Of a DNA stretch of 64,000 bases, positions 3,946 through 18,072 are shown piece after piece (positions within the stretch are counted from its first letter, which is position 1; the number at the start of each line of letters is the position of its first letter). Made by a program: the position numbers and the translations under genes. The stretch covers positions 1-64,000 of the forward strand of contig NZ_BOOH01000038.1 of the NCBI RefSeq assembly GCF_016863135.1, read 5' to 3'. The notes beneath the pieces were generated by a model. It worked only from the letters and a program-made list of their open reading frames with translations, made no database searches and was not told the DNA's origin. This DNA comes from Planobispora longispora. GTDB taxonomy: Bacteria > Actinomycetota > Actinomycetes > Streptosporangiales > Streptosporangiaceae.

Positions 3946-5015
3946 GTGCACCGATGACCGGCGCCTCCCAGCCGGCCGGTGCTGTTGATGTCGCCGTCAT
4001 CGGCGGCGGCCAAGCGGGCCTGGCGGCCGGGTACTACCTGCGCCGGGCCGGGGCCGACTTCGTCATCCTGGACGCTCAAGAGCAGCCGGGCGGGGCCTGG
4101 CGGCACGCCTGGCCGTCCTTGCGGCTGTTCTCCCCGGCTCAGTACAGCTCGCTGCCGGGGCGGATGATGCCCATCCCCGAGGGCGGCGGCTACCCCAGCG
4201 CTGCCGACGTGGTCGCCTACCTGACCGACTACGAGCAGCGCTACGACCTGCCGGTCATCCGGCCCGCAGCGGTGCGGGCGGTGCGTGAGGCCGGTGAGCG
4301 GCTGGCGGTGGAGACCGGCGCCGGCACCTGGCGGGCCCGCATCGTCATCAGCGCGACCGGTACCTGGGGGCGGCCGTACGTGCCGCACTATGCCGGTCGC
4401 GATGTCTTTCGCGGCCGCCAGCTGCATACCGCCACCTACCTCGGCCCCGAGCCCTTGCGGGACATGAGGGTGGTCGTGGTGGGCGGTGGCAACTCCGCCG
4501 CGCAGATCCTCGCCGAGGTCTCCACCGTCGCCGAGACCACCTGGGTGACGTTGCGCCCGCCGCGGCTGCTGCCCGATGAGGTCGACGGACGCGCCCTGTT
4601 CGACCTGGCCAGCCGCCGCGCCCGCTGTCCCGATGCGCCCGCCATCGGCGAGCTGGGCGACATCGTCGCCGTCTCGCCGGTGCGCCAGGCCCGGGAGCGC
4701 GGCGCGCTCAAGGCCGAGCCGATGTTCACCCGCCTCACCCCAGATGGTGTGGCCTTCTCCGACGGCACCACCCTAGGCTGTGACGCCATCATCTGGTGCA
4801 CCGGGTTTCGGCCCGCCCTGGCCCATCTGGCTCCGCTGAAGCTGCGCAAGCCCGGCGGGACGATCCCGGTCGATGGCACCCGCGCCCTCGCCGAGATGCG
4901 CCTGCACCTGCTCGGCTACGGCGACTGGACCGGCCCCGCCTCCGCGACGCTGATCGGCGCCGGACGCAGCGCCAAGGCGACGGTGGCGCAGATCATGCGC
5001 CACCTCACCGCCTGA
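3942..5015 (+). CDS. arsO: ArsO-type flavin monooxygenase
   Basis: A 357-aa NAD(P)/FAD-binding protein of the ArsO type. GGGQAG at residues 21-26 is the FAD site, GGGNSA near residue 181 is the NADPH site, and ATGTW marks the FMO-like second FAD contact. The C-terminal signature LLGYGDWTGPASATLIGAGRS, here quoted in part as GYGDWTGPASATLIGAGRS, is typical of the family. ATG overlaps the arsR stop, so arsR-arsO is translationally coupled. A degraded copy of its last ~35 codons lies at 6045-6153. ArsO is widely linked to ars operons, but its exact reaction is poorly defined. Confidence 0.88.
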   Translation: MSAPMTGASQPAGAVDVAVIGGGQAGLAAGYYLRRAGADFVILDAQEQPGGAWRHAWPSLRLFSPAQYSSLPGRMMPIPEGGGYPSAADVVAYLTDYEQRYDLPVIRPAAVRAVREAGERLAVETGAGTWRARIVISATGTWGRPYVPHYAGRDVFRGRQLHTATYLGPEPLRDMRVVVVGGGNSAAQILAEVSTVAETTWVTLRPPRLLPDEVDGRALFDLASRRARCPDAPAIGELGDIVAVSPVRQARERGALKAEPMFTRLTPDGVAFSDGTTLGCDAIIWCTGFRPALAHLAPLKLRKPGGTIPVDGTRALAEMRLHLLGYGDWTGPASATLIGAGRSAKATVAQIMRHLTA

Positions 5016-7760: not shown

Positions 7761-8165
7761 TCAGGCGGGCAGCAGCTCGGCGATGAGCTGCTCGATCCGG
7801 GTACGGATCTCATCGCGGATCGCCCTGACCGCCTCGATGCCCTGGCCGGCCGGATCGTCCAGCTTCCAGTCCTCATAGCGCTTGCCGGGGAAGATCGGGC
7901 AGGCGTCCCCGCAGCCCATGGTGATCACCACATCGGAGTCCTGCACCGCCTCGGTGGTCAGCACCTTCGGGCGCGCGCCGGTGATGTCGATGCCGACCTC
8001 GGCCATCGCCTCGACGGCCACGGGGTTGATGGTCTCGGCCGGGGCCGAACCGGCCGAGCGGACCTCGATCGCCTCACCGGCCAGGAGGGCCAGCCAGCCG
8101 GCGGCCATCTGGGAGCGTCCGGCGTTGTGCACGCATACGAACAACACGCTGGGCTTGTCACTCAT
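7761..8165 (-). CDS. arsC: arsenate reductase (LMW-phosphatase fold), copy 1
   Basis: About 134 residues beginning MSDKPSVLFVCVHNAGRSQM. The C-x5-R phosphatase loop is Cys11 to Arg17. MGCGDACP provides Cys85 and Cys89, the resolving region in actinobacterial ArsC that couples to thioredoxin or mycothiol/mycoredoxin. A GTG nine bases further upstream has a better spaced GGAG, so the true start may be at 8174. It is the third gene of the arsR2-aquaglyceroporin-arsC operon, so arsenate would be reduced and As(III) then released through the channel. Confidence 0.93.
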   Translation of the reverse strand: MSDKPSVLFVCVHNAGRSQMAAGWLALLAGEAIEVRSAGSAPAETINPVAVEAMAEVGIDITGARPKVLTTEAVQDSDVVITMGCGDACPIFPGKRYEDWKLDDPAGQGIEAVRAIRDEIRTRIEQLIAELLPA

Positions 8166-8255
8166 CACTCTCACAGTCTTTTCTCCAGGCCGCACGATGC
8201 GGCAGACACTTCCCCCTTTGAGCGTCCTGCGCCGCCCGGCAGCGGCCGAGGGCGC

Positions 8256-8984
8256 TCAGGGCCGGGAGGCCGGATGCGGCACGACCGCCTCCTGCCGCGC
8301 CCCGACGGCGGGGCGGCCGAACAAGCCGGTCACCAGCAGCAGGCCGATCACCCCGCCCGCCAGCTGGGCGACGACGAAGCCGGGCACCGAGGCCGGGGCG
8401 ATGCCGGCGAAGGAGTCAGAAAACGCCCGGCCGACGGTGACGGCCGGGTTGGCGAAGCTGGTGGAGGAGGTGAACCAGTAGGCCGCGCCGATGTAGCCGG
8501 CGACCGCCACCGGCGCCATCGCCGTACGGCCGGCGCGCACCAGGCCGAAGATCACCAAGACCAGGCCGGCGGTGGCCACACCCTCGCCCAGCCACAGGTG
8601 GCTTGCGGTGCGCTCGGTGCTCGCCCAGCTGATGGCCGGCTGGTCGAACATGGCGTTAGCCAGCACTGCTCCGGCGATCGCCCCGCCGATCTGCGCCGGG
8701 ATGTAGGCGGCCAGCTCACGCGCACTCAGCCCGGTGCCGGTACGGCGCGCCTGCCACCACTCGGCGGCCGAGACCACCGGGTTGAAGTGCGCACCGGAGA
8801 CCGGGCCGAGCACCACGATCAGCACGCCCAGGCCGAACACCGTGGCGATGGCGTTCTCCAGCAGCTGCAGGCCCACATCGTTCGGCGACAGGCTGTGGGC
8901 CATGATGCCGGAGCCGACCACCACAGCCACCAGCAGCGCGGTGCCGAGGAACTCGGCCAGCACGCGGCGCGCCAGCGGGATCAC
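8256..8984 (-). CDS. MIP-family aquaglyceroporin of the ars operon
   Basis: A 242-aa, six-segment major intrinsic protein. The two half-helix motifs are NPV (residues 68-70, replacing the canonical NPA) and NPA (179-181), the latter followed by VTVGR. GTG at 8984 overlaps the arsR2 stop by four bases, so translation is coupled. MIP channels replace ArsB or Acr3 in some ars operons (AqpS of Sinorhizobium is the described case), letting As(III) made by ArsC leave down its gradient. No ArsB or Acr3 pump is present in this window, which fits that scheme. The NPV variant is the notable residue change. Confidence 0.88.
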   Translation of the reverse strand: MIPLARRVLAEFLGTALLVAVVVGSGIMAHSLSPNDVGLQLLENAIATVFGLGVLIVVLGPVSGAHFNPVVSAAEWWQARRTGTGLSARELAAYIPAQIGGAIAGAVLANAMFDQPAISWASTERTASHLWLGEGVATAGLVLVIFGLVRAGRTAMAPVAVAGYIGAAYWFTSSTSFANPAVTVGRAFSDSFAGIAPASVPGFVVAQLAGGVIGLLLVTGLFGRPAVGARQEAVVPHPASRP

Positions 8985-9334
8985 GCGACCGCTCCGGCGG
9001 AAGCCGGGAGACCGAGGAGGCCCGACAGCTCGGCCAGCATCTCGGGGACCACCCGGTAATACACCCAGGACGCCCGGCGCTCGGCGGTGAGCAGGCCGAC
9101 GTCTTTCAGGACCTTCAGGTGGTGGCTGATGGTCGGCTGGGACAACTCGAAAGCGGCGGTCAGGTCGCACACGCAGGCCTCGCCGTCGACGTGGCTGGCC
9201 ACGATCGAGACGATGCGCAGCCGGACCGGATCCCCCAGCGCCTTGAACACCCGCGCCAAGGCGGCCGCCTGGTCGGCGCCGAGCGGCTGGCGGGCCAGCG
9301 GTGAGCTGCATCCGGCGATCTGCAGTGGCTCCAT
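8981..9334 (-). CDS. arsR: ArsR-family repressor, second copy
   Basis: A 117-aa ArsR/SmtB regulator. ATG at 9334 is preceded by AAGGGGAG at close spacing, which favours it over an ATG 45 bases upstream. Cys9 plus Cys54 and Cys56 (ACVCDL) are the likely As(III) ligands, and QPTISHHLKVL is the recognition helix. It heads an operon with the aquaglyceroporin and arsC1. The operator-like CATAGA..ATAGATG element just upstream is its probable autoregulatory site. The pair with ArsR at 3562 suggests two independently acquired ars blocks. Confidence 0.92.
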   Translation of the reverse strand: MEPLQIAGCSSPLARQPLGADQAAALARVFKALGDPVRLRIVSIVASHVDGEACVCDLTAAFELSQPTISHHLKVLKDVGLLTAERRASWVYYRVVPEMLAELSGLLGLPASAGAVA

Positions 9335-9376
9335 CGTCTCCCCTTGCTCGCGCCGAGCGGCGGCGGTTTCTGCTGC

Positions 9377-9400
9377 CATCTATATTGGCAGGCGTCTATG
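9377..9400 (-). promoter_or_regulatory. candidate arsR2 promoter/operator
   Basis: On the reverse strand this reads CATAGACGCCTGCCAATATAGATG, quoted here as CATAGA and ATAGATG halves around a GC-rich spacer. It is the only AT-containing stretch between arsC2 and arsR2 and lies 45-65 bases upstream of the arsR2 ATG, where an ArsR operator is expected. Confidence 0.4.
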
Positions 9401-9423
9401 CGTGCAGGTGCAGTGAGGTGGGC

Positions 9424-9837
9424 CTACGCGACGGGGACGTCGAGTTCGGCGAGCAGGGTGCGCACGCGCCGCTCGATCTCCTCGCGGATCGGGCGCACCT
9501 GCTCGGCACTCTTGCCTGCCGGATCGGCCAGCTCCCAGTCCAGGTAGCGCTTGCCGGGGAAGATCGGGCAGGCGTCCCCGCAGCCCATGGTGACCACCAC
9601 GTCGGCGGCGCGGACGATCTCCTCGGTCCACGGCTTGGGGAACTCACGGGAGATGTCGATGCCGATCTCGGCCATGGACTCAACTGCGGCCGGGTTGATC
9701 TCACTGGCGAACTCCGAGCCGCCCGACCAGGCCAGGGCGTGCTCGCCGGCCAGGTGCTGAAACAGCCCCAGGGCCATCTGGGAGCGGCCGGCGTTGTGCA
9801 CGCACAAAAGCACCTGACTCCACCCCGGCGCCGGCAC
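9424..9837 (-). CDS. arsC: arsenate reductase, copy 2
   Basis: A 137-aa LMW-phosphatase-type ArsC with Cys12-x5-Arg18 (CVHNAGR) and the downstream MGCGDACP pair. It is clearly divergent from copy 1 (FPKPWTEEIVRA against PKVLTTEAVQD). The start is uncertain: GTG at 9837 has no good ribosome-binding site, and the usual VLFVCV strand is shortened to VLLCV. An IS5-family element lies 160 bases upstream and may have removed its original promoter. arsR2 starts 90 bases downstream with its own operator-like site. Confidence 0.88.
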   Translation of the reverse strand: MPAPGWSQVLLCVHNAGRSQMALGLFQHLAGEHALAWSGGSEFASEINPAAVESMAEIGIDISREFPKPWTEEIVRAADVVVTMGCGDACPIFPGKRYLDWELADPAGKSAEQVRPIREEIERRVRTLLAELDVPVA

Positions 9838-9999: not shown

Positions 10000-10890
10000 A
10001 GAGCTCCTAACAGAATGACCTCCGTTGTGCTTTGATCTCTCGCTGTAGCGGCGGCGAGAGGAGCAGCAGGGTGGCACGGCTGAAGCCGTGGGAGGTCAGT
10101 GACGAGCTGTGGACGGTCATCGAGCCGCTGCTGCCGAAGAAGGCGCGCCGTACCCGCTGGCCAGGACGTAAGCGGTTGGATGACCGCCTGGCGCTGCAGG
10201 GCATCTTGTTCGTGCTGCACACCGGCATCTCCTGGGAGCATCTGCCGCAGGAGCTGGGCTACGGCTCGGGCATGACGTGCTGGCGGCGGCTGAAGGAGTG
10301 GAACGACGCCGGCGTCTGGCAGCGTCTGCACGAGGTGCTCCTGGACCGCCTGAGAGCGGCCGACGCCCTCGACTTCTCCCGGGCCGTGGTGGACTCCTCC
10401 CACGTCAGAGCGTTAAAAGGGGGGCGCAGACCGGCCCGTCGCCGGTCGATCGGGACGGGCCGGCAGCAAGCACCATCTGATCACCGAGGCCACCGGCATC
10501 CCGCTCGCCGTCATCATGACCGGCGCCAACCGCAACGATGTCACCCAGTTGATGCCGCTGCTGCAGGCCATCCCCAAGGTGCGTGGCAAACGCGGCCGCC
10601 CCCGGCAGCGGCCGGAGGTCGTGCTGGCCGACCGCGGCTACGACCACGACAAGTACCGCCGGCTCGTGCGCGAGCTGCAGATCCGGCCGCTGATCGCTCG
10701 GCGTGGTACGGAACACGGCTCCGGCCTGGGTGAACAGCGCTGGGTCGTGGAGCAGGCCTTTGCCCTGTTGCATCTTTCCGCCGCCTGCGGATCCGCTGGG
10801 AGGTCCGCGCCGACATCCACGAGGCCTTCCTCAAGCTGGCCTGCGCCCTGATCTGCTGGCGCCGCCTCAGCTCATTGCGTTAGGAGCTCT
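10000..10890. mobile_element. decayed IS5-family insertion sequence
   Basis: The ends AGAGCTCCTAAC at 10000 and its complement at 10879-10890 form imperfect inverted repeats of about 20 bases. TA flanks the element on both sides (9998-9999 and 10891-10892), consistent with a TA duplication. The 891-base length and the encoded DDE transposase fit the IS5 family. The transposase is broken, so the copy is probably immobile unless helped in trans. Confidence 0.8.
10071..10883 (+). pseudogene. IS5-family transposase, frameshifted
   Basis: GTG at 10071 follows a GGAG. The N-terminal part (VSDELWTVIEPLLP .. GISWEHLPQELGYGSG) is intact, as is the central block TGANRNDVTQLMPLL .. VVLADRGYDHDKYR with a DDE Asp. 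Three frame changes are needed to read it through. The first is at AAAAGGGGGG (10415-10424), a classic -1 slippery site that may be programmed. The other two look like single-base deletions, near 10463 and near 10770. After the last one the expected tail (RIRWEVRADIHEAFLKLA) resumes and ends at TAG 10881-10883. Confidence 0.8.
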
Positions 10891-11088: not shown

Positions 11089-11114
11089 TATGCATTATGT
11101 TAAAAACATGCATA
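11089..11114. promoter_or_regulatory. AT-rich inverted repeat upstream of the protease gene
   Basis: TATGCAT (11089-11095) and ATGCATA (11108-11114) form an inverted repeat in the only AT-rich stretch before the secreted protease gene, 50-75 bases from its GTG. It is a candidate promoter or operator. No regulator can be named. Confidence 0.35.
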
Positions 11115-11163
11115 AAACGGACATAAGGTTGCGGTGCTCTGTCACACCGAGTGAGGGACCTTT

Positions 11164-13887
11164 GTGACCACATCTCCATCCGCGCCCCGGCATCTGCGCC
11201 GGGGCGCTGCCGCGCTCGCCGTGGCCGCCCTGACATCCATGGGCATGGCGACCTCCGTCGGATCCGCCGCGGCTGACCCGCAGCCAGCCGCGAGCACCGA
11301 GGCCACCGCTACCTCGGCCCACGACAAGAACGCCGCCAAGAAGGCCGCCCGCGAACACGGCCGCCCGGTACGCGTCGATGCACTGCTCGCCGAGCAGTCC
11401 ACCACCTGGGCCATGCCCGACCAGACGCTCAAGACCGAGCTGTATGCCGGCCCGATCCGCCTCCAGCGCGGCGGCGCCTGGCGCGACATCGACACCACCC
11501 TCACTCAGAGCGATGGAGTGCTCAAGCCCAAGGTCGCCAAGGCCGAGGTGGAGATCTCCACCGGCGGCACGGGCCCATTCCTGCGCCTGCGGCACGGCAA
11601 CGGCAACGCCTTCGGGGTGCGCTGGGCCAAGAACCTGCCCACGCCGACCGTCGAGGGCGACACCGCGACCTTCGCCGACGTCATCCCCGGCGGTGACCTG
11701 GTCGTCACCGCCCTGTCGACCGGCTTCACCCACGATGTGGTGCTGCGCAAGCGCCCCACCGGCCCGGTAGAGATCCGCATGCCGCTGGAGCTGACCGGCA
11801 TGAAGCTCGATCGCAAAGCCGCCAAGGGCGCCAAGCGCGGCGAGGGCCGCCTGGAGCTGACCGACACCAACGGCGACCTGATCGGTACGGCGCCGGACCC
11901 GCAGATGTGGGACGCCGCTGCCGAGGACTCTCCCGATGCCGGCCAGCGCGCGGTAGTCGACACCGAAATCGCCACCGAACGCGGCCAGCAGGTGCTGGTA
12001 CTGCGCCCGGATGCCACCTTCCTGAACGACCCGGATGTGCGCTACCCGGTGCGCATCGACCCGTGGACCTCCCTGGCGCTCACCACCGACGCCTTCGTCT
12101 CCACCGACTACCCCAGCCCCGGCAACGCCTCCACCTGGCTGCACGCCGGCAAGTTCGGCTCTGGCGCCAAGGTCGCCCGCACCTACCTGAAGTTCGACAC
12201 CACCCCCCTGCTCGGCAAGGCCATCCTCAATGCCGACTTGAAGCTGTGGAGCTACAAGTCCAACGCCTGCGGCATGGTCGTCGGCTCCGGCATCCAGGCC
12301 CGCCGCGTCACCGCAGCCTGGACCAAGGTCACCTTGTCGGCCCAGCCGGCCACCACCACTGAGGACGCGGTCACCAACCGCGCCTCCTACGGCGCGCCCA
12401 ACTGCAAGGAAGAATGGCTGTGGTGGTCGATCGAGGGCATCGTGGCCGACTGGGCGAACGGCGCGGCCAACCACGGCCTGCAGATGCGCGCGGCCAACGA
12501 GAACGACACCACCAACTGGCGGATGTTCCACTCGGCCGAATTCGCCGGCGGAAACCGGCCCACCCTGGTGGTCAAGTACGAAGACCAGGGCATCGTCGCC
12601 CCAGCCGGCCCCGACGGCGTGGAGGTCTTCCGCGGCAACGGCGAGGATGTGCCGCAGATGTCGGACACCCTCTCGGCCGCCCTGGACAAGGCGATCGACG
12701 CCGCCGAGGCCAACCCGGCCGACCTGGCCCAGCCGTATGCCGATGCCGAGACCGGCCAGCTCATCACCCCGGCAGTGACTACCGCTGGGCAGACGCTGGC
12801 GGCCAAGACCCTCTCCGGCCAGGCCGCCACCGGTGAAGGCAGCGACGATCCGACCGTTCCCGGTGCGGTGGAAGCTTCTGAGGAAGGTGACGCCGCAGAA
12901 ACTCCGGACACCTCAGCGGGCACCACCGTCTCCTACAGCATCGCCTCGGCGGTGGCCAACGCCAAGTACAGCGCTGGAGCATTGCAGGCGATCGCCGATG
13001 AGATCGCCGGCCTCGACGCCACGCAGCTTCCCGGCGCCGATGCCATCTACATCACCGGGGTGCAGCCGGAGCGCAACCGTGTGGTGGTGCAGGCCACCAG
13101 CGCCAGCGTGGAGACACGTCAGGCTCTGGCCGCCCGCTACGGCCTGGACAAGGTCGCCATTCGATTGATCGATCCTGGCCAGGTGCCGGTCAAGACCGAA
13201 TCGCGCAACAACGACATCGGTGACTACATCGCCGGAGGGGCCGCCGCCAGCCCGTGCACGACCGGGTTCGCCTGGATGGACGGCACGACTCCGGCCATGT
13301 TGGGCGCCGGCCACTGCTACGACACCAACATCACAGATCTGGGCCTGGTCGCTTACGACACCTACGGTCCCAACGGCACCGTGAAGCTGCAAGGACAACC
13401 GAAATACCGCGGTGATCTGGCGCTGGTCTACCTCACCAAATATCCGAGGGGCGGATCGGCCTCGATCTGGATCGGGGGCGCTACCTCCACCCAACGCCGT
13501 TACGTCTCTGGGGTGTACAGGAAGTATGCGAAGGTCGGTGACCGATACTGCGTCTCGGGAAAGATGACCGGAGAAACCTGCGGCTGGAAAGTGGTCGACA
13601 TAGGCGAGACCATCACCTACAAGGACGGCGATGAAGCCAAATACCTGGTCATCGGCGAGAAAACCTCCGGCAAGTGCATCATCGGAGGCGATTCCGGATC
13701 TCCGGTCTACACCATCCGCCCAGAGGACGGACGAGTCGTCGCCCGCGGTATCACCAGCGGCGGCACCGCCCTTCAGGAAGCGAACTTCTTCCTGAACTGC
13801 CGTCACTACTTCACCGACATCCGCCATGCGGTCAACGCCATGCCCGGCAGCATCAAGCGGACCACGAAAACCGGGATCGCCCAATGA
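11164..13887 (+). CDS. secreted DNRLRE-like / chymotrypsin-type serine protease fusion
   Basis: A 907-aa exported protein. A signal peptide with Arg-rich n-region and AAA cleavage site spans roughly residues 1-37. Residues ~60-470 resemble the wall-associated 'DNRLRE' module seen in actinobacterial RHS/secreted proteins (RIDPWTSLALTTDAFV .. LKFDTTPLLGKAILNADLKLW). A linker of ~150 residues and a helical pro-like region follow. The C-terminal ~210 residues form an S1 protease domain with His717 (GAGHC), Asp751 (GDLALVYL) and Ser844 (GGDSGSPV). Start GTG is preceded by GAGG. The stop overlaps the next gene's ATG by four bases. This domain order is unusual; self-processing of the large N-terminal module is plausible but inferred. 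Confidence 0.82.
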   Translation: MTTSPSAPRHLRRGAAALAVAALTSMGMATSVGSAAADPQPAASTEATATSAHDKNAAKKAAREHGRPVRVDALLAEQSTTWAMPDQTLKTELYAGPIRLQRGGAWRDIDTTLTQSDGVLKPKVAKAEVEISTGGTGPFLRLRHGNGNAFGVRWAKNLPTPTVEGDTATFADVIPGGDLVVTALSTGFTHDVVLRKRPTGPVEIRMPLELTGMKLDRKAAKGAKRGEGRLELTDTNGDLIGTAPDPQMWDAAAEDSPDAGQRAVVDTEIATERGQQVLVLRPDATFLNDPDVRYPVRIDPWTSLALTTDAFVSTDYPSPGNASTWLHAGKFGSGAKVARTYLKFDTTPLLGKAILNADLKLWSYKSNACGMVVGSGIQARRVTAAWTKVTLSAQPATTTEDAVTNRASYGAPNCKEEWLWWSIEGIVADWANGAANHGLQMRAANENDTTNWRMFHSAEFAGGNRPTLVVKYEDQGIVAPAGPDGVEVFRGNGEDVPQMSDTLSAALDKAIDAAEANPADLAQPYADAETGQLITPAVTTAGQTLAAKTLSGQAATGEGSDDPTVPGAVEASEEGDAAETPDTSAGTTVSYSIASAVANAKYSAGALQAIADEIAGLDATQLPGADAIYITGVQPERNRVVVQATSASVETRQALAARYGLDKVAIRLIDPGQVPVKTESRNNDIGDYIAGGAAASPCTTGFAWMDGTTPAMLGAGHCYDTNITDLGLVAYDTYGPNGTVKLQGQPKYRGDLALVYLTKYPRGGSASIWIGGATSTQRRYVSGVYRKYAKVGDRYCVSGKMTGETCGWKVVDIGETITYKDGDEAKYLVIGEKTSGKCIIGGDSGSPVYTIRPEDGRVVARGITSGGTALQEANFFLNCRHYFTDIRHAVNAMPGSIKRTTKTGIAQ

Positions 13888-14270
13888 GCCGCCACCGCGG
13901 TGGCGCGCTCCGGCTGGCCGCAATGGTAGCGCTCTGTGGCCTGCTCACTGCGGGATGTCTGCACAGCAAGCGGCTAGCAGTGGTCACCGAAGCAGTAGTC
14001 CAGCCGGATGAGCGGACACTGACCGTCCTGTTCCCCGGGGATCTCATCGATGGAAAGGTATGCACGGCCGTCGACGACACCGAGGTCACAGAGACGGATC
14101 AACGCGTCACCATCGGCGTCTACCTCAAAGACGTCTGCGAAGGAAGCCCTTTTGAGAATGTCGCCGGCATCGATACCGAGCAGAGCACGCAGATCCACCT
14201 GACCGCCCCCTTGGGGGATCGGGTGCTGGAGATGCCCGACGGGCAGCGCATCACCATCCGCCGCCCGTAG
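13884..14270 (+). CDS. lipoprotein coupled to the secreted protease
   Basis: A 128-aa lipoprotein precursor: basic n-region, hydrophobic stretch and lipobox LTAGC at residues 21-25. The mature part has two further Cys (KVCTAV, KDVCEG) that could form a disulfide. ATG overlaps the protease stop (ATGA), so the two are translated together. A membrane-tethered partner, inhibitor or substrate of the protease is the obvious hypothesis. No family is recognised. Confidence 0.75.
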   Translation: MSRHRGGALRLAAMVALCGLLTAGCLHSKRLAVVTEAVVQPDERTLTVLFPGDLIDGKVCTAVDDTEVTETDQRVTIGVYLKDVCEGSPFENVAGIDTEQSTQIHLTAPLGDRVLEMPDGQRITIRRP

Positions 14271-14282
14271 CCAAAGCGCTCT

Positions 14283-14317
14283 CTGTCCCTGCTGAGCAGC
14301 CGATTGTGCAGGGACAG
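14283..14317. terminator. hairpin after the lipoprotein gene
   Basis: CTGTCCCTG (14283-14291) pairs with CAGGGACAG (14309-14317) around a 17-base loop, 13 bases after the lipoprotein stop. A stem without a U-tract is typical of high-GC terminators. Confidence 0.6.
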
Positions 14318-15852: not shown

Positions 15853-16464
15853 CTACAGGGACTCAGGTGAGTCCGGCAGCGGCTCGCGGTGCCCGCCCGC
15901 GCGCATGCCCTCGATGAACAGCTTGAGGTGGTGGCGGTACAGGTACGGATCCGTGTGGTAGGTCGCTTCGATGATCGCGGCCAGGGCGATCTGGATGTAG
16001 TAGACATCGGCGGCCTCGAAGTCGGGGCGCAGCGTGCCCTGCTGGTGGGCCTTGGCGACCATCTGCTGCACCAGCGGCGCGATCTCCTCGCGGGACCTGA
16101 CCGCCAGCGGGCTGCTGGGCGCGGTGCAGACCACCAGTCCGCGCAGGCCGCAGTTGCCGACCTGCATGTTCATGGAGTCTTCGAGGTAGCGGACCAGGCC
16201 GCGCCACCCGTCGGGGTCGGCGGCCGCCTTCCGGGCGCTGTCGGTCGCGCTGGCGAGCCGGTCGGCGAAAAGCGCGTCCAGCAGATCGTCCTTGGTCGGG
16301 AAGTGCCGGTAGACGGTGCCGACGCCCACACCTGCATGGCGGGCGACGTCCTTCAAGGTCACGCTCAGCCCCACGGTGGCGTAGAGATCCTCGGCCGCCT
16401 CCAGCAGCAGGGCACGGTTGCGCGCGGCGTCCTTCCTGATCAGAGGGGTTGCGGCGTCGGTCAT
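15853..16464 (-). CDS. TetR-family regulator divergent from a DHA2 exporter
   Basis: A 203-aa TetR regulator. The N-terminal HTH is clear (LKDVARHAGVGVGTVYRHFPTKDDLLDALF, quoted in parts, residues ~37-66). The C-terminal domain belongs to the common SbtR-like type. It is divergent from the MFS exporter/SDR/ketopantoate-reductase-like operon across a 120-base region carrying repeated GGAACAGTCGGTCCG motifs, so it most likely represses itself and that operon. Confidence 0.88.
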   Translation of the reverse strand: MTDAATPLIRKDAARNRALLLEAAEDLYATVGLSVTLKDVARHAGVGVGTVYRHFPTKDDLLDALFADRLASATDSARKAAADPDGWRGLVRYLEDSMNMQVGNCGLRGLVVCTAPSSPLAVRSREEIAPLVQQMVAKAHQQGTLRPDFEAADVYYIQIALAAIIEATYHTDPYLYRHHLKLFIEGMRAGGHREPLPDSPESL

Positions 16465-16484
16465 GTCACGATCATACCCTACGC

Positions 16485-16550
16485 GGAACAGTCGGTCCGT
16501 TTAGATTTGGAACAGTCGGTCCGCTTCTGGTGCCGCCCCTAAACGGACCA
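16485..16550. promoter_or_regulatory. TetR operator repeats
   Basis: GGAACAGTCGGTCCG occurs twice as a perfect direct repeat (16485-16499 and 16509-16523), 24 bases apart, followed by AAACGGACC at 16541. Two helical turns between copies suggests cooperative repressor binding over both divergent promoters. Confidence 0.65.
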
Positions 16551-16587
16551 ACAATTCCGTTTTTTGTCGTTGTCGGGAGCCTTTCCT

Positions 16588-18072
16588 ATGCCGCCCAAGC
16601 CAGCAGATCACAGCGCCCAGCCAGCCATCCGGCGCAAGTGGCTTGCGCTGGTCTTCATCGTGACCGCGCAGCTGATGGTGGTGCTGGACGGCACGATCGT
16701 GAACATCGCGCTGCCCGCGGCCCAGGCCGATCTGGGGTTCGGTGATCACGACCGTCAGTGGGCCGTGACCGCGTACGCGCTGGCGTTCGGCAGCCTGCTG
16801 CTGATCGGTGGCCGGGTTGCTGACCTGTTCGGTCAGAAGCGGGCCTTCCTGATCGGCCTGGTCGGGTTCGCAGGCGCCTCCGTGCTGGGTGGGCTTGCTT
16901 CCTCGCTCGGGCTACTGATCGCCGCGCGGGCCGGGCAGGGCGTGTTCGGTGCGTTGTTGGCGCCGGCTGCGCTCTCACTCATCTCCATCACGTTCACCGA
17001 CGCCAAGGAGCGCGCGAAGGCGTTCGGTGTGTTCAGCGCCGTGGCGGCCTCGGGTGGCGCCCTCGGCCTGCTCTTCGGAGGCGTGCTGACCGAGTACCTG
17101 TCGTGGAACTGGTGCATGTTCGTCAACGTCGCCTTCGCTGCCATCGCCTTCGCCGGTGCCGCCGTGCTCGTGCCGAATGAGGCACCGACCGCGCGGCCCC
17201 GCCTGGACGTGCTCGGAGCCGTCACGGTCACGGTCGGGTTGGTGGCCCTCGCCTACGGGGTCGCCCGGGTCGAGACCGCGGGCTGGACCGACGCCCTCAC
17301 GGTGGGATCGCTGCTGGTCGGCGTGGTGCTGGTGGCGCTGTTCGTGCTGGTGCAGAGGCGTACGTCTCACCCGCTGCTGCCGCTGCACATCTTGCTGCAC
17401 CGTGACCGCGGCGGATCGTTGCTGGTGCTGACCCTGATCAACTTCGGTCTCTTCGGTCTGTTCCCCTTCCTGACCTACTACCTGCAGGTCACGCTGGGCT
17501 TCTCGGCCCTCCAGACCGGGTTCGCGTTCCTGCCGTTGCCGCTGGGGATCATCATCGGGGCGAATCTGCTCACCGGGCTCCTGCGCCCCCGGGTCGGCCC
17601 CCGACTGATGGCGGTCAGCGGCACCGTGATCGCTGCCGGCGGCCTGCTGATCCTGCAGACCCTCGCCGTGGACTCCGCGTACGCCGCCGTGGTGCTCCCC
17701 GCGCCGGCCGTGATCGGTCTCGGCGTCGGCCTGGTGTACCCGGCCGCGCTCTCGACCGGCACCCTCGGTGTCGCCACCGAGGACGCCGGCGCCGCCTCGG
17801 CCGCAGTCAACATGGCCCAGCAGGTCGGCGGCTCGATCGGGACCGCCGTGCTCAGCAGCATCTACGGCAGCGCGGTCGCCGGCTATCTCAGCGACCACGC
17901 GGGCACCGACGACCTCGCCAACGAGGCGGCCGTGAACGGCTACCACCTCACCTTCGCCGTCGCCGCCATCGTTCTACTCGGCGCCGCCCTCATCAGCGCA
18001 CTGCTGGTGCGAAACGCCGGCGACCCGACCGGGGCAGCCGACGAGGCACCGGCTCCCGTCGCGGTCCACTGA
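16588..18072 (+). CDS. DHA2-family 14-TM drug exporter
   Basis: A 494-aa MFS protein of the EmrB/QacA type. VVLDGTIVNIALP in TM1 is the DHA2 motif, and GRVADLFGQKRAFLIG is motif A. About 14 segments are visible and the C-terminus is hydrophilic. ATG at 16588 has GGGAG 8 bases upstream and is preferred over an in-frame GTG at 16564. It is first in an operon with an NmrA-like reductase and a ketopantoate-reductase-like gene, under TetR control. The substrate is unknown. Confidence 0.88.
   Translation: MPPKPADHSAQPAIRRKWLALVFIVTAQLMVVLDGTIVNIALPAAQADLGFGDHDRQWAVTAYALAFGSLLLIGGRVADLFGQKRAFLIGLVGFAGASVLGGLASSLGLLIAARAGQGVFGALLAPAALSLISITFTDAKERAKAFGVFSAVAASGGALGLLFGGVLTEYLSWNWCMFVNVAFAAIAFAGAAVLVPNEAPTARPRLDVLGAVTVTVGLVALAYGVARVETAGWTDALTVGSLLVGVVLVALFVLVQRRTSHPLLPLHILLHRDRGGSLLVLTLINFGLFGLFPFLTYYLQVTLGFSALQTGFAFLPLPLGIIIGANLLTGLLRPRVGPRLMAVSGTVIAAGGLLILQTLAVDSAYAAVVLPAPAVIGLGVGLVYPAALSTGTLGVATEDAGAASAAVNMAQQVGGSIGTAVLSSIYGSAVAGYLSDHAGTDDLANEAAVNGYHLTFAVAAIVLLGAALISALLVRNAGDPTGAADEAPAPVAVH

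Follow-up and report, generated by a model that had tools for sequence, protein, structure and literature searches.

A DNRLRE-bearing protease fusion of the alpha-lytic type and its adjoining lipoprotein in Planobispora longispora: a candidate protease and protector pair

Background

Why would an exported protease be joined to a large surface-type module and be followed, in an overlapping reading frame, by the gene of a small lipoprotein? This question is raised by two adjacent genes of the soil-type actinobacterium Planobispora longispora, located in the first 64,000 nucleotides of contig NZ_BOOH01000038.1 (contig C38 of an 8.84 Mb genome; this whole stretch is hereafter the window, or WIN in lists of loci). 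The closest relative of this genome is that of Planobispora takensis (L002). A preliminary description, prepared from the sequence alone, had recognized a 907-residue exported protein combining a DNRLRE-like module with a protease and overlapping a lipoprotein gene by four bases, all of which our analyses confirm, and had read the pair as a wall-displayed protease plus tethered partner.

Here we report the architecture of this fusion, with its intact catalytic triad and its adjacent lipoprotein gene, and the restriction of such a partner, within our sample, to N-terminally extended proteases. The explanation that we favour, with about an even chance of being correct, is that the two-gene unit encodes a surface-retained, self-maturing protease together with a membrane-anchored protector, i.e. 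an inhibitor or immunity protein.

Extended proteases and their partners

The fusion gene (11164..13887, forward strand, as are all the features of the unit given below) was identified from the list of open reading frames (ORFs) and the sequence; it starts with GTG and codes for 907 amino acids, for which the AlphaFold2 model has a mean predicted local distance difference test score (pLDDT) of 84.5. From its N-terminus onwards the protein comprises an N-terminal module, a DNRLRE domain, a linker, a likely pro-region and an alpha-lytic-type protease. The small lipoprotein gene (13884..14270, ATG start, 128 amino acids) was assigned as a tethered partner from its lipobox, its predicted model and its adjacency in relatives, and shares with the fusion gene the four bases ATGA at 13884..13887, in which stop and start overlap. 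The same start at -4 is found at L112 (P. takensis), L104, L105 and L099. No second match to the fusion was found in the window's own genome at E<=0.001.

The protease half was searched in 341 genomes of the family, with six candidates scored per genome, and at least 14 of the 341 hold an extended or damaged copy. Two forms of the protease occur in the family, N-terminally extended proteins (899-972 amino acids in the intact frames) and stand-alone pro-proteases of about 420-515 amino acids. Outside the family we found fusions of 1530-1593 amino acids, whose module and pro-protease lie some 600 residues apart; in the two that were scanned (L187 and L205), Pfam identified Ig-like Big_13 in this intervening part. 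One of these fusions (L189) is located on a plasmid of Streptomyces sp. NBC_01450, and the six others come from genomes of one genus (g85) that is probably also Streptomyces, as judged from their kinship to L189 in the tree; these seven are hereafter the fusions of the second genus.

Neighbouring genes were scored with a family-blind scan for exported-looking ORFs of at least 60 amino acids starting -40 to +100 nucleotides from the protease stop codon, exported-looking meaning either a lipobox plus a hydrophobic stretch or a strong transmembrane stretch; weak protease matches (E above about 1e-20) were left out. A membrane-tethered small protein was found directly downstream of all 17 intact extended proteases, its start lying -4 to +32 nucleotides from the stop. 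These 17 rows, ten from the window's family and seven from the second genus, come from as many records (WIN, L083, L093, L094, L096, L103-L107, L187, L189, L202-L206), and 16 of them carry the N-terminal module, L104 having another N-terminus. Because 16 partners have a lipobox and that of L105 has a signal anchor in its place, tethering appears to be kept even where the anchor is exchanged.

No partner was found next to any of 19 stand-alone pro-proteases from 13 genomes, seven of which form a tandem array in one genome (L084:4573-16378). Among the module-bearing proteins that lack a protease, one of 15 testable cases has a partner (L136, with a membrane-anchored ORF directly downstream), and a further one, L129, runs off its contig. 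The comparison of 17/17 with 0/19 and 1/15 therefore indicates that the partner goes with the extended proteases, and not with the protease or the module alone. This gives a testable rule for the genes examined: the stand-alone pro-protease comes without a partner, the extended form always with a membrane-anchored one.

Outside the 17, partners also accompany ten of 11 damaged or truncated proteases (L095, L098, L099, L102, L108, L112, L207, L208, L210, L211). Four of these (L095, L098, L108, L112) retain the module in neighbouring frames, L211 still has some of the Ig part and L208 a stretch with weak similarity to the module (E 5e-4), while no trace of the module was found in L099, L102, L207 and L210.

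The two-gene unit, which the preliminary description had suggested looking for elsewhere, thus recurs with a partner at each of the 17 intact extended proteases. Of the reading then proposed, protease plus tethered partner holds as a conserved unit (17/17, against 0/19 for stand-alone genes), whereas display on the wall would follow from the nature of the N-terminal module. Nor did the domain search, as far as it extended, reveal a common annotated family for the fusion, as the only named family was DNRLRE/CBM96.

Protease and likely pro-region

The mature protease domain was delimited to residues 686-907 (13219..13884) by profile match and fold. Its catalytic residues His717 (codon 13312..13314), Asp751 (13414..13416) and Ser844 (13693..13695) are unchanged in all 17 aligned sequences; the serine is surrounded by GDSG. 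The window protein alone gave no protease model above cut-off in Pfam or NCBIfam. A profile of the C-terminal half from 17 relatives matched alpha-lytic protease (E 5.4e-10) and streptogrisin B (E 1.6e-08), and Pfam Trypsin was found in nine of the 17 at E<=0.1 (best 5.5e-08). The model contains the two-barrel trypsin-like fold that spans about 190 residues in this enzyme family; its residues 687-900 align with the S. griseus protease 2sga (Z 23.6, root-mean-square deviation (rmsd) 1.8 A over 176 residues, 22% identity) and with 2alp (Z 22.5). Predicted fold and profile together assign the protease to the alpha-lytic/streptogrisin fold, presumably MEROPS family S1E. The claim that a complete protease with Ser844 as its serine is present is therefore upheld, both by the invariance of the triad and by the match of the predicted fold to 2sga. 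Structures of rice NAL1 also align to residues 594-902, a range that takes in both the pro-region and the protease (Z up to 18.1; rmsd 5.5 A over 276 residues). The umbrella toxin particle Umb1 aligns over the protease (Z 12.2).

Ahead of the protease, at about residues 587-679 (12922..13200), lies a likely alpha-lytic-type pro-region that was overlooked in the preliminary description. The evidence consists of a weak PF02983 match to residues 603-662 (E 0.088, 13.3 bits, below the cut-off of 23.4) and of a low-confidence junction at residues 679-683 of the AlphaFold2 model, just before the mature start. PF02983 was detected at E<=0.1 in three of the 17 relatives (best 0.0038); of four weaker relatives, L175 (E 8.1e-18) and L178 (E 5.3e-13) match it and L177 and L180 do not. 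We regard the pro-region as likely rather than proven, because the match is weak and the relatives are mixed. Given such a pro-region, the arrangement suggests that the mature enzyme is cut free from the N-terminal module.

The N-terminal half

The export signal, read from the translation in a part of low pLDDT, covers about residues 1-38 (11164..11277), and cleavage would take place at about residue 38. It is followed by a beta-rich module of ~235 amino acids at about residues 66-300 (11359..12063), delimited by homologue searches and the AlphaFold2 model; the preliminary description had missed this module, which lies N-terminal to the DNRLRE domain. The latter, a DNRLRE/CBM96 domain at residues 302-471 (12067..12576), is identified by NF033679 (residues 308-470, E 2.6e-25, 89.4 bits against a cut-off of 34) and by PF24517 (residues 302-471, E 5.2e-08, 33.3 bits against a cut-off of 26). 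The model also matches the carbohydrate-binding module (CBM) structures 8wab (Z 18.2) and 7vbo (Z 14.9), over ranges of 86-473 and 92-471. The N-terminal half as a whole, of which the DNRLRE domain is one part, measures about 475 residues.

The whole fusion used as a query found matches in 124 of 200 genomes of the family, and most of the matches listed cover about residues 1-475 within other large proteins. From these, 16 module-only proteins were picked by hand, of which 14 were scanned with Pfam (L135 and L137 being left out). Two contain RHS repeats, five LamG (one of them below cut-off and with Big_5, another with a ricin-type lectin), three Amidase_6, one Big_5/CopC without LamG and one fn3 alone, and in two only CBM96 was found. 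Because it is present in proteins with RHS repeats, LamG, Amidase_6 and Ig domains, the N-terminal module is, by its domain company, best described as a general surface or delivery part and not as a protease part. The combination of the module with fn3 and Amidase_6 domains in L131, L132 and L136 may represent a family of surface amidases.

The lipoprotein partner

The partner carries the lipobox LTAGC, with its cysteine at residue 25 (codon 13956..13958), and its model (pLDDT 87.6) has seven strands. No family above cut-off was found in Pfam, NCBIfam or PHROGs, and a match to TIGR00282 (E 0.014, 14.8 bits, cut-off 254) was rejected. The fold was compared with solved structures only, and we claim no new fold. 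Within the window's family, partners are tethered by a lipobox or by a signal anchor without the lipobox cysteine (L105 and the truncated L099).

In other genomes of the class, larger proteins of the envelope type carry distant relatives of the partner domain at their C-terminus or close to it; at L168, L169, L173 and similar loci the domain forms the C-terminus of open frames of ~490-590 amino acids, that of L168 having no NCBIfam match. The window's own genome holds one such distant match (G000:C58, E 7e-5). The partner may have been recruited from larger proteins of the envelope type. Partner fragments are also found at G097:C22.

In the second genus the same position is occupied by a lipoprotein of 139-170 amino acids with five invariant cysteines including that of the lipobox (10/11 sequences aligned). 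The profile of the first partner family does not detect it, and hhalign of the two families returned a probability of 1.3%; by profile comparison it belongs to a different, unrelated lipoprotein family.

Inheritance, origin and decay of the unit

For the nine full fusions, the correlations among the distances of partner, protease, pro-region and N-terminal module range from 0.78 to 0.85. Although the module is found with other C-termini, within the protease fusions all parts co-diverge. Polymorphic-toxin cassette swapping, which was sought by this distance correlation, was not seen, and the sequences indicate that the unit is inherited together, with no sign of payload swapping. Between the window and P. 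takensis, nonsynonymous divergence (dN) is highest in the protease (0.179) and in the lipoprotein taken whole (0.176). The corresponding values are 0.073 for DNRLRE, 0.071 for the pro-region and, counted from residue 50, 0.109 for the N-terminal module. Faster evolution of protease and partner was rejected, as synonymous divergence (dS) is raised too (0.46 and 0.43, against 0.21 to 0.36 in the other segments) and dN/dS (0.38 and 0.41) is near that of DNRLRE (0.35; range by segment 0.11-0.47). For the same reason we make no claim of positive selection; in this comparison both genes are under purifying selection.

In a tree of 44 protease regions, the 15 rows of the window's family (nine intact, six damaged) form one clade (99/99), and the second-genus fusions together with the truncated L208 form another (99/99); L104 is on a long branch and its placement is uncertain. 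Relative to the midpoint root, the second-genus fusions are on the same side as the stand-alone genes, and in the best tree the fused state changes three times, L208 being counted as fused.

Partners without an intact protease were found 20 times, 13 of them beside protease relics and seven with none upstream at E<=0.01, while no intact extended protease was found without a partner. The 20 include L146 and leave out weak profile matches in other proteins (L139, L142-L145, L147, L150, L151). They derive from 22 upstream regions examined; two of these, L112b and L002b, belong to a single second copy located after the P. takensis gene and match the main gene only, and L116a and L116b share one protease relic. 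Two successive partner genes, one of them partial and each beside protease relics, occur at L140:3746-4850, which looks like tandem decay of the unit. In P. takensis, where the public assembly has a frameshift near 4820 in the fusion gene, a second, diverged lipoprotein copy lies behind the first (L002:6804-7826), preceded by an apparent remnant of a protease C-terminus that was read by eye. As evidence, we give this asymmetry of decay moderate weight.

Interpretation of the two-gene unit

If the unit is a protease with its protector, the large protein would be exported and its DNRLRE-containing N-terminal half would hold the proenzyme at a polysaccharide or cell-wall surface. The pro-region would fold the protease and then be cut at about residues 679-686, as expected from the enzyme family. 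The lipoprotein, on the outer face of the membrane, would bind active enzyme turning inward, and would spare the envelope proteins of the producer from an enzyme acting nearby. A freely diffusing enzyme would need such a protector less, which fits the stand-alone genes and their lack of a partner. By analogy with adjacent inhibitors elsewhere, the partner may bind and inhibit the protease, a putative role.

Several observations weigh against this explanation. The cut-offs of the neighbour scan were chosen when the first partners had already been found, and the rows share ancestry, the 17 extended proteases belonging mostly to two clades and seven of the 19 stand-alone ones to a single tandem array. 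The number of independent pairs is one on well-supported (starred) branches and three on all branches, and the approximately unbiased (AU) test did not reject one origin shared by all fused rows (p 0.22). Co-inheritance is not specific to the protease, since partner distances track the N-terminal module (r 0.79) as well as the protease (r 0.78). As to decay, the protease gene has about seven times the length of the partner gene, so that chance decay would strike it first; moreover, the second partner copy in L140 is itself partial, L154 is a protease remnant without a partner, and L209, frameshifted and without trace of the module, has no partner either. The partner model matched no known inhibitor; it had no match in the PDB at E<=0.001, the best Foldseek hit having E 0.21, and VIA-align gave a best Z of 4.4, staphostatin not being among the matches listed. 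Finally, the partner-domain profile matches in 61 of 394 genomes of the class (E<=0.001, a count that includes the window's family), and distant relatives of the domain sit in envelope proteins that lack a protease.

These distant relatives, together with a co-inheritance that does not single out the protease part, are what would be expected if the lipoprotein were an unrelated passenger or a general envelope protein sharing the transcript. Such a passenger would hardly be found at 17/17 extended proteases against 0/19 and 1/15 of the other genes, nor would a second lipoprotein family be expected at the equivalent place in another genus, and we give the passenger explanation little credence. 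The partner could instead, from its membrane anchor, activate the fused protease or help it to fold, comparable to the lipase-specific foldases, which act as folding helpers for lipases. The gene order, with the enzyme first and the anchored helper immediately after it, would be the same, and a partner does occur with all 17 intact extended forms. The fusion, however, appears to retain its own alpha-lytic-type pro-region, 19 stand-alone proteases of the family manage without a partner, two profile-unrelated families occupy the partner position, and partners persist beside broken proteases; we therefore consider a folding role unlikely.

Some observations recall the WapA-like toxin and immunity pairs that act between bacteria, in which case the N-terminal module would deliver the protease as a C-terminal payload and the lipoprotein would confer immunity on the producer and its kin. 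Two RHS-repeat proteins begin with the same module, Streptococcus suis WapA has DNRLRE next to LysM where it binds the wall (PMC12704120), and partners are found beside relics of protease C-termini, two in succession in L140. The fusion, though, has no RHS repeats, the part distances over nine fusions (0.78 to 0.85) show no payload swapping, and proteins with LamG, Ig-like and Amidase_6 domains begin with the module too, so that this interpretation too seems improbable to us.

Returning to the protease and protector explanation, a wider and more tentative proposal, somewhat short of an even chance, is that a class of alpha-lytic-type proteases not yet described exists in actinobacteria, self-maturing and retained at the surface, and that their display on the cell that makes them depends on a dedicated membrane-anchored immunity protein, a position into which two or more unrelated lipoprotein families have moved. 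Should the partner prove to be an inhibitor, the two families would be new inhibitor families for alpha-lytic-type proteases, and the unit would provide a defined genetic basis for the self-protection of Gram-positive bacteria from proteases that they display themselves.

Comparison with known systems

The enzyme family, the domain and the logic of a protease with an adjacent protector are known; the fusion, the partner rule and the two partner families were not found described. For the fusion and the gene pair, no description was found in the open-access literature, subscription journals being mostly outside the search. With alpha-lytic protease and streptogrisin, the window protein shares the protease fold, sequence profile and triad and a weak PF02983 pro-region match, but it adds about 475 residues of surface module and the adjacent membrane-tethered partner.

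In Bacteroides, according to PMC3462683, secreted proteases have small inhibitor-like proteins encoded next door, some of them predicted lipoproteins, and btiA lies 5 bp after btpA in a pair interpreted as serving cell protection. The C10 proteases BtpA/BtpB and the staphostatin-like BtiA/BtiB thus share with the Planobispora pair an exported pro-protease and an adjoining small predicted lipoprotein, but BtpA and BtpB are cysteine proteases and are themselves predicted lipoproteins, the envelope is Gram-negative and the partner family is another, inhibition in Planobispora being putative. Staphopain and staphostatin, in the same source, are a co-transcribed protease and small inhibitor directed against premature activity, a role that is putative in the Planobispora pair; the staphostatins differ in being cytoplasmic and in acting on cysteine proteases (PMC3462683). 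The layout of an adjacent inhibitor, i.e. a small, conserved gene directly next to that of the enzyme, is found at 17 of 17 loci, inhibition itself being putative.

S. suis WapA-CT1 is likewise exported, with DNRLRE (there with LysM) in an N-terminal wall-binding region and a C-terminal payload (PMC12704120). WapA/Rhs toxins differ, as the fusion is without RHS repeats, its payload is a pro-protease and no payload swapping was seen; no PF05593 (RHS/YD) match was found in the fusion at E<=1, and two module-sharing proteins have PF05593. CBM96 is described as an alginate-binding module in PMC9971899. The fusion shares with it the family model on residues 302-471 and the fold of 7vbo and 8wab, but its copy is attached to a protease.

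Flanking features of the window

A block at 11104..11163, directly upstream of the fusion gene and conserved with P. takensis in pairwise alignment, is a possible promoter or leader; no sigma-70-like promoter was matched in a scan of the upstream region. Downstream of the lipoprotein gene, a hairpin at 14283..14317 is a possible transcript end on the basis of folding energy. It is weak here, with -20.7 kcal/mol over the stretch and a z of -0.83; that at the equivalent place in P. takensis has -44.7 and z -9.43. The terminator scan, which included the hairpin region, found none, and tRNA and Rfam scans of the window gave no matches.

Just upstream of the fusion gene, an IS4/5-family transposase is split over two frames (10032-10851, forward strand). 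On the reverse strand at 7761-9837, two genes of the low-molecular-weight phosphatase type (arsenate-reductase-like) flank an ArsR-type regulator and a MIP channel gene, an arrangement suggestive of an arsenic cluster that includes a channel of the aquaporin type. At 15853-18072, a TetR-type regulator is divergent from an MFS transporter.

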